Positions 34,425 through 35,133 of a DNA stretch of 56,365 nt are shown here, piece by piece; position 1 is the first letter of the stretch, and every line of letters begins with the position of its first letter. The stretch comes from an uncultured Leifsonia sp. GTDB taxonomy: Bacteria > Actinomycetota > Actinomycetes > Actinomycetales > Microbacteriaceae. The DNA lies in contig NZ_CAMFLC010000026.1 of the NCBI RefSeq assembly GCF_945957465.1, forward strand, positions 1 to 56,365, read 5' to 3'. Made by a program: the position numbers and the translations under genes. The notes beneath the pieces are model-generated. The model made no database searches and was not told the origin of the DNA. It saw nothing but the letters and a program-made list of their open reading frames with translations.

Positions 34425-34473
34425 ACACTACATGTAGTGGAATGACAATCGTGTCATTCGGGTTATATAGTGG
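34425..34473 (+). promoter_or_regulatory. Mini-gene promoter with NrdR-box-like pair and a central dyad
   Basis: ACACTACATGTAGTGG (34425-34440) contains a perfect 14-bp palindrome and matches 13 of 16 positions of the NrdR-box consensus acaCwAtATaTwGtgt. A second site (34458-34473) has only the right half, TATAGTGG, well conserved; centres are 33 bp apart. Exactly between them lies the perfect dyad AATGACAATCGTGTCATT (34441-34458). Promoter hexamers ATGACA (34442-34447) and TATAGT (34466-34471), 18-nt spacer, overlap all three sites. NrdR is inference; the palindromes are seen. Confidence 0.6.
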
Positions 34474-34480
34474 GTAAACA

Positions 34481-34495
34481 CCGCGAGACACGCGG
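34481..34495 (+). promoter_or_regulatory. Leader hairpin of the mini-gene mRNA
   Basis: CCGCG AGACA CGCGG, a 5-bp stem with 5-nt loop in the predicted 5' leader of about 55 nt. Confidence 0.4.
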
Positions 34496-34534
34496 CGAAA
34501 CAGACTTCAGTTCTAGTGAATCGGGGAGGCCATC

Positions 34535-34618
34535 ATGGACTACGAAAACGACACCGTCGGCGGCTACGCAGTTCCCGTCGACCCGATGGATCTGCTGCAG
34601 TGCGACAGCTGCCAGTAA
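34535..34618 (+). CDS. 27-residue peptide ending in CxxC-Gln, unknown function
   Basis: Codes for a 27-aa acidic peptide beginning MDYENDTVGGYA and ending LLQCDSCQ, with PVDPMD in the middle. It has every mark of a real gene: strong promoter, GGGGAGG 5 nt before ATG, third-position G/C bias, TAA stop, and a perfect terminator 18 nt later. No signal peptide or membrane segment. The CxxC near the C-terminus could be a redox pair, a metal ligand or a modification site. Options: orphan redox tail (ribonucleotide reductase alpha subunits end in such cysteines, and the promoter looks NrdR-like), modified/secreted signal peptide, or leader peptide for attenuation of hadAB-murB. I recognise no family. 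Confidence 0.7.
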   Translation: MDYENDTVGGYAVPVDPMDLLQCDSCQ

Positions 34619-34636
34619 TCCGCTGACACAGCTTCG

Positions 34637-34674
34637 AGAGCCCCGGCGCTTCTGCGCCGGGGCTCTTCTGTTCG
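34637..34674 (+). terminator. Rho-independent terminator of the mini-gene
   Basis: AGAGCCCCGGCGC (34637-34649) pairs perfectly with 34654-34666 around TTCT, followed by the T-rich TCTGTTCG. Separates the mini-gene from hadA. Confidence 0.85.
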
Positions 34675-34686: not shown

Positions 34687-35133
34687 GTGCCAGTGAATCC
34701 AGAGCTCGTCGGGCGCAGTTTCCCGCCGACCCCTCCCTACCTCGTCGGTCGTGAGAAGGTGCGCGAGTTCGCCGCGGCCGTGCTCGCGACGGATCCGATC
34801 AGTTTCGATGTGGCCGCCGCGCAGGCCGCCGGGCATGCCGACCTCGTCGCACCTCCGACCTTCGCGGTCGTGGTGCAGCAGCTGACCCTCGATCAGCTGC
34901 TCGCCGACCCGGAGGCGGGCATCGACTTCAGCCGCGTCGTCCACGGCGATCAGCGGTTCACTTTCACCCGGCCGGTCGTCGCAGGCGACGAGCTCACCGC
35001 GACGCTCACCGTGACCTCGGTCAAGTCGCTCGGCGCGCACTCGATGGTCACCGCCGAGACCGTCATCGTCGACGATTCCGGCGAGCACGTCGTCACGACC
35101 GTGTCCACCCTGGTCGTTCGAGGAGACGAGTGA
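34687..35133 (+). CDS. FAS1-like/MaoC-like hydratase subunit (HadA/HadC type)
   Basis: 148 aa hot-dog fold of the N-terminal MaoC dehydratase family: PELVGRSFPPTPPYLVGREKVREFAAAV at the start, APPTFAVVV in the middle and VHGDQRFTFTRPVVAGDELTATLTV. HadA-like subunits lack the catalytic Asp/His and pair with a HadB-like catalytic subunit, here the next gene (1-nt overlap). Together they should dehydrate (R)-3-hydroxyacyl thioesters in fatty-acid elongation. Start GTG is fixed by the leaderless -10. Confidence 0.9.
   Translation: MPVNPELVGRSFPPTPPYLVGREKVREFAAAVLATDPISFDVAAAQAAGHADLVAPPTFAVVVQQLTLDQLLADPEAGIDFSRVVHGDQRFTFTRPVVAGDELTATLTVTSVKSLGAHSMVTAETVIVDDSGEHVVTTVSTLVVRGDE

Follow-up and report, generated by a model that had tools for sequence, protein, structure and literature searches.

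Few enzymes have been studied as closely as the essential ribonucleotide reductase (RNR), whose swinging C-terminal tail has been described as part of the alpha chain. NrdH-redoxin and glutaredoxin, small CxxC donors for RNR that have the thioredoxin fold and are often co-regulated with the enzyme, act on this tail, one step upstream. According to the account in PMC5704485, a C-terminal cysteine pair on the flexible tail of class I enzymes returns the active site to its reduced state and receives its own electrons from thioredoxin or glutaredoxin; the same account reports that mixing an active-site mutant with a C-terminal mutant of a class II enzyme restored activity, the cysteine pair serving another subunit. 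The CxxC tail motif is given for 1737 of 2022 class I sequences (PMC9531940). In Pseudomonas aeruginosa, the detached NrdJb (229 residues) is described as carrying out disulfide exchange for NrdJa and as needed in vivo (PMC4520616), and phage RNR genes are reported to be split by introns, inteins or homing endonucleases (PMC3653736).

Here we analysed a stretch of 56,365 nucleotides (the window) from an uncultured Leifsonia sp. of the family Microbacteriaceae. It contains a 27-codon gene, MDYENDTVGGYAVPVDPMDLLQCDSCQ, at positions 34535-34618 of the forward strand (ATG at 34535, TAA at 34618), which very probably supplies a split class I RNR with an electron-shuttle subunit that acts in trans under NrdR control, that is, a free RNR tail. 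The closest precedent is NrdJb of the split class II enzyme, in which a separate polypeptide likewise provides the thiol-disulfide exchange that is absent from the catalytic chain. NrdJb, however, is a cysteine-rich class II protein of 229 residues whose gene shares an operon with that of its partner, whereas the peptides considered here have about 25-27 residues, two cysteines and a class I nrdAB partner, are encoded at several loci, one type with its own NrdR-type promoter, and have phage and plasmid copies. With the CxxC tail of class I NrdA the 27-mer shares sequence homology and presumably its chemistry, but that tail is covalent in NrdA and a separate ORF here. Phage split RNRs are also RNRs in pieces; there the cuts lie in the gene body, whereas in the present case the functional tail has been separated, duplicated and dispersed over the genome. 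In contrast to NrdH-redoxin and glutaredoxin, the 27-mer does not qualify as a thioredoxin-fold protein, as hmmscan of its 27 residues gave only a chance zinc-finger match in Pfam (E 0.31) and none in NCBIfam. In our best reading it works like NrdJb and is homologous to the class I tail, while being a member of neither group as strictly defined. What is new relative to known split RNRs is the unusual dispersal, the size and the phage carriage; a free RNR tail was not found described in the openly licensed PubMed Central literature, nor was any paper there that joins ribonucleotide reductase and NrdA with Microbacteriaceae.

Sequence homology links the peptide to the CxxC tail at the C-terminus of NrdA, the class I RNR alpha chain, and like these redox tails it carries its CxxC at the extreme C-terminus (CDSCQ). 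The genome encodes a single RNR alpha chain with the PF02867 domain, a PRK06539-type NrdA of 830 residues with ATP cone, all-alpha and barrel domains, which ends in ...ARRGFGFGGLTSNTTAGGESK and is cysteine-free over its last 79 residues. Since its catalytic motifs NLCTEI, VCNL and KTTYYL align with the solved alpha chain 5im3, which we take to be Pseudomonas NrdA, the barrel looks intact and the tail appears to be the missing part. A sequence-only reading of the locus had proposed an orphan redox or metal peptide linked to ribonucleotide reduction and had suggested a comparison with the RNR alpha tails of the same genome. This comparison proved decisive, as the sole alpha chain lacks the very tail to which the peptide is homologous. 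The redox link was thereby supported; nothing was found in support of a metal peptide, and the gene is no orphan, for the genome (4.06 Mb, 112 contigs) holds six copies of the tail peptide. One of these sits behind nrdA as an overlapping ORF, VNSTKIEEYYVPVDPMDDLQCESCQ, that starts on the nrdA stop (GTGA) and is followed by nrdB. A search of the PDB with the tail profile A1 returned no match at E-values up to 10, so the search by sequence gave no solved structure of such a tail.

In the linkers of NrdA proteins (e.g. L036:6200-6320; also the fused homologs L051 and L055), (R/K)(R/K)GFG motifs are repeated, and the C-termini of many split NrdAs lie in or near RRGFGFGGL or RRGFGGL, a sequence at which the free tail might dock. 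A plasmid-like contig (L039:8209-8511, reverse strand; G000:C32) encodes a 100-aa protein with the tail end AAEYVVPIDPMEALQCDSCQ. The N-terminal part of this protein has no Pfam match, and similar longer forms are found in the Schumannella contigs L338 and L412.

At 34425-34672, the 27-codon gene forms a compact transcription unit with two NrdR-type boxes, a promoter, a ribosome-binding site and a terminator, all on the forward strand. Box 1 (ACACTACATGTAGTGG, 34425-34440) scores 19 of 22 against a working consensus. Box 2 (TCGGGTTATATAGTGG, 34458-34473) follows after a 17-bp spacer and lies over the -10 element; with 13 of 22 points against this consensus it does no better than another 16-mer of the region, so that it rests on position and conservation rather than on score. 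The promoter ATGACA-18-TATAGT (34442-34471) was found once where 0.1 occurrences are expected, and its -35 element is overlapped by the left arm of a perfect dyad, GAATGACA-ATCG-TGTCATTC (34440-34459), with one match in the window against 0.04 expected. By eye, the 8-bp arms of the dyad are retained at most same-genus loci and partly decayed outside the genus, and a second regulator acting there is possible. A short candidate leader hairpin, CCGCG..CGCGG, was likewise seen by eye. The ribosome-binding site GGGGAGG (34523-34529) was read from the sequence and recurs at same-genus loci. The intrinsic terminator (34638-34672), read in the same way, consists of a perfect 12-bp stem (34638-34665) followed by TTCTGTT; a terminator scanner gives a smaller, different stem at 34638-34665, and by eye the stems of relatives have different letters. 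Of the control apparatus claimed in the sequence-only reading, box 1, the dyad, the promoter, the GGGGAGG and the 12-bp terminator thus stood, while the second box came out weak. A Pfam scan of six neighbouring proteins identified a Ppx/GppA phosphatase, two MaoC/FAS1-type dehydratases, MurB, a DEAD/DEAH-box helicase and one protein without a Pfam match. We take the two dehydratases to be hadA and hadB; the hadA-like gene lies downstream of the 27-codon gene, at 34687.

Together, the ORF and box 1 recur in all 28 same-genus (Leifsonia) genomes, each of which has at least two tail matches. Over 29 loci of the window type (28 from the genus plus G035), dN/dS was 0.125, indicating purifying selection; 26 of these loci are of equal length, 19 sequences are distinct, and only residues 2, 3, 5, 7, 12 and 20 of the 27 vary. 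This recurrence and the low dN/dS place the 27-codon gene beyond chance. The predicted ORF ending in CDSCQ is therefore confirmed as a conserved gene, and the loss of the reading frame in relatives, named beforehand as what would speak against it, was not observed. Among the 18 hand-picked tails of profile A1, the proline, the DP pair, both cysteines and the final glutamine are invariant.

These data also bear on two further ideas of the sequence-only reading. A regulatory leader, i.e. an attenuator or leader peptide for the downstream gene, would suit the position upstream of the hadA-like gene and the presence of a terminator. It is, however, the amino-acid sequence that is conserved and not the RNA alone, and copies occur in unrelated contexts (nrdAB, plasmids, phages), which makes this explanation highly improbable. 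We give as little credence to a modified peptide (RiPP), a signal or a metal-binding peptide: the product is indeed short and conserved with a CxxC end, but no recognised maturation or export gene was present among the six neighbours scanned, and the homology to the RNR tail already accounts for the conserved residues. The homology to an enzyme tail, together with a terminator belonging to the gene itself, counts against the signal-peptide and leader readings alike.

We compared free and fused tails across taxa. In an order-level sample of 149 genomes, all 27 NrdA homologs other than the genome's own are fused and end in CxxC(Q/E); ten of them share 73-75% identity with it, and their ends include VGGVACPVDPMERLQCESCQ (e.g. 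in an NrdA of 74% identity). Within the Microbacteriaceae, by contrast, none of 87 NrdA 3' ends is fused: 81 have a separate tail ORF behind nrdA, five have none and one is cut by a contig end. These 87 were inspected out of 88, the gene of G197 being cut by a contig end; a script located 79 of the 81 operon tail ORFs and visual inspection the other two (L247 and L251), and for 77 the start of nrdB was recognised immediately downstream. In L251 (G036), the nrdA frame itself continues past the tail ORF, which lies in another frame. In a class-wide search of 394 genomes, 24 outside the family matched, their open frames spanning 851-1153 residues. Exceptions are two frames, in G565 and G450:C28, that run off the stretch and both read like fused ends, and the match in G594, which is weak and probably due to chance. 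A 16-residue relict-like frame in G311 was left out of the tail count.

A scan of named genomes returned at least 118 stretches, and among the matches listed 13 tails are fused, 98 free and seven cut; 42 of these 98 lie near nrdA or nrdB and 56 apart. Titles were available for 80 of the 118 listed stretches. The titled fused records among them belong to Demequina, Actinotalea, Cellulomonas, Nocardioides, an Aeromicrobium MAG and kin, and the titled free ones mostly to Microbacteriaceae or to MAGs classified no further than higher ranks. MAGs titled Cellulomonadaceae (L358) and Acidobacteria (L364, L385) contribute three free tails, which would lie outside the Microbacteriaceae if the titles are right. 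In a phylogenetic tree of 29 of the 30 split loci tried, 21 fused and 6 outgroup rows (leaving out 58 other split genomes and 8 of 14 distant fused homologs), the split state needs two changes and forms one group in 30% of bootstraps, and the fused state falls on one side of a branch in 84 of 100. The tree allows a single origin of the split state but does not prove it.

The overlap of the tail ORF with the nrdA stop (GTGA) in the Leifsonia genome would fit a programmed frameshift or readthrough that fuses the tail to NrdA, with the free copies as functionless spares. We rejected this explanation, which we consider very unlikely, because the tail can stand in any of the three frames relative to the nrdA stop (74, 84 and 112 nt from nrdA stop to tail stop in L046, L087 and L098, respectively) and because five genomes lack any operon tail ORF. 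Nor do functionless spares agree with the purifying selection on the window-type copies.

Two comparisons proved decisive for the trans-acting tail, namely its joint occurrence with NrdA and the genomes that lack an operon tail. Across 199 genomes of the family, 88 contained both NrdA (E <= 1e-200, 88 genomes) and the tail (E <= 0.01, 93 genomes), none contained NrdA only, five the tail only and 106 neither (Fisher p = 4e-51, without correction for relatedness). All five genomes with the tail only are fragmented, at 120-420 contigs, and belong to genera that have NrdA elsewhere in the sample. This NrdA is the only PF02867-type RNR in nine of ten genomes of the family checked, in addition to the Leifsonia genome itself. 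The five genomes without an operon tail (G228, G294, G345, G308 and G190) all retain the window-type gene, which adjoins hadA in all five and hadB-murB in four, the stretch from G228 showing hadA only; in each, it is preceded by a box-and-promoter-like sequence seen by eye. In G190, a genome of 0.9 Mb, the hadA/hadB-murB neighbours are 37-45% identical, and the assembly of G345 is 88% complete. For four of the five, the window-type gene is the sole tail found, while G294 has a second tail on another contig together with a third, weak match there (E 0.24). Four of the five also have a single PF02867 RNR; the second RNR of G308, with its own cysteine-rich end, is read as class II from its sequence. 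Since these five genomes keep the window-type gene while lacking an operon tail, the tail must act in trans if these organisms make their dNTPs with this enzyme.

A free peptide could alternatively serve as a regulator or inhibitor that fills the tail channel and tunes RNR activity instead of donating electrons. Separate NrdR-type control, several copies per genome and the copies on phages and plasmids would suit such dosage dependence. The invariance of both cysteines and the final glutamine in the hand-picked A1 tails, the fact that the fused homologs are ordinary tails and the four genomes in which the window-type gene is the sole tail found argue against it, and we regard this role as unlikely.

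The electron-shuttle reading leads to the following model. The Microbacteriaceae NrdA stops in the flexible linker (...RRGFGFGGL...) and would thus be without the CxxCQ tail that re-reduces the active-site disulfide after each turnover. This tail would be supplied in trans from two sources, the short ORF behind nrdA in the nrdA-nrdB operon and the window-type gene before hadA/hadB-murB. We infer that the peptide is expressed and binds NrdA, that its two cysteines reduce the active-site pair of NrdA by thiol-disulfide exchange, and that thioredoxin or a similar protein then reduces the oxidised peptide again. In the Leifsonia genome, where the operon copy exists, the window copy may be partly redundant.

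The window promoter fits the features of an NrdR regulon, having two boxes with a spacer in the range of 15-17 bp in a genome where nrdR is present (TIGR00244 above cut-off at G000:C97). For four tested NrdRs, including that of Streptomyces coelicolor, best binding at 15-17 bp spacing is reported (PMC12051234). An exact two-box pattern matched twice in the Leifsonia genome, once ahead of nrdA (C7:29674) and once ahead of the window gene (C26:34426), and the reversed pattern, used as a control in the same genome, gave no match. The pattern was written from these two promoters, both already seen, so the search demonstrates their uniqueness (no third exact match) and not an independent discovery. 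The nrdA boxes are 16 bp apart and score 16 and 13 on the 22-point working consensus. By binding the boxes, NrdR may repress the window gene together with nrdAB when dATP is plentiful; tail dosage would therefore follow RNR dosage.

Tails are also encoded on mobile elements. They were detected on 19 plasmid records (Clavibacter 15, Leifsonia 3, Gryllotalpicola 1), 6 of which are typed as conjugative, and one 33-aa plasmid copy is misnamed 'ribonucleotide-diphosphate reductase subunit beta'. Six phage records representing four cultured phages (CMP1, CN1A, phiPsal1 and Pan2) contain the tail as well, with the weak E-values of a short query (0.009 to 3), each match ending a short frame with CxxCQ; the tail is not annotated in five of these records and is called 'hypothetical protein' in one. 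A pattern search of IMG/VR returned at least 120 viral stretches with a tail. Among the matches listed, 119 of 120 tails occupy short free frames of 25-147 aa from stop to stop; the remaining one is cut. NrdA or NrdB is encoded in three of the 120 listed stretches (L161, L174 and L200), compared to 117 without, within 0.95 Mb in total. The gene order in L161 is tail, nrdA, nrdB, and its NrdA is tail-less, too. The phage nrdA at L161:9955-13317 is interrupted between conserved blocks by an insertion that resembles an intein or intron.

Over the 300 nt up to the end of the phage tail ORFs, candidate NrdR boxes were not convincing, the best scoring 16 of 22. Downstream, box pairs exactly 16 bp apart occur 11-208 nt after the tail ORF in 16 of the 120 listed viral stretches (L121, L123, L131, L136, L138, L150, L153, L178, L182, L189, L195, L212, L220, L222, L223 and L230), against 0.33 expected over all loci (mean of three shuffles). 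Ten of the 16 have TTGAC between the boxes, and some of the contigs are near-duplicates. Single boxes scoring 17 or more were present in 12 of 120 downstream viral pieces versus 10 of 1200 random ones. In all four loci checked (L138, L153, L222 and L150), the gene after the box pair encodes a portal protein; the tail gene of L138 sits between the large terminase and portal genes, and in L178 a terminase gene also lies just upstream. Control of a structural operon of a phage by the dNTP sensor of its host would, to our knowledge, be new.

An RNA-like element of 81-82 nt that matches both tmRNA ends, without the mRNA-like part, lies behind or near the phage tail gene in L138:3057-3137 and L114:3149-3230 (both reverse strand), L222:1433-1513, L136:2764-2844 and L122:1844-1924. 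The Rfam model RF00023 scored above gathering in five of eight loci tested, below it in L131 and not at all in two. ARAGORN reported no tmRNA in 15 of 16 loci and an odd one in L122, and a tmRNA-end pattern of our own matches 14 of the 120 listed viral loci.

Taken together, the Microbacteriaceae appear to operate their class I RNR with a tail that is encoded as a micro-gene of its own. The split makes an old question directly testable, namely tail function in trans, affinity and rate limitation, and it points to a micro-gene family common to host, plasmid and phage that annotation often misses or misnames. The findings suggest that phages modulate the host dNTP supply with about 25 codons. 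The wider interpretation is more tentative, and we place it slightly below an even chance. The Microbacteriaceae RNR tail would then be a diffusible, dosage-controlled subunit, and because the host NrdA lacks its own tail, a gene of some 25 codons, which might be the smallest auxiliary metabolic gene known, could suffice for phages and plasmids to increase host dNTP synthesis or take it over. Some phages would, in addition, have placed their portal-gene promoter under host NrdR boxes, which may tie virion assembly to dNTP levels.
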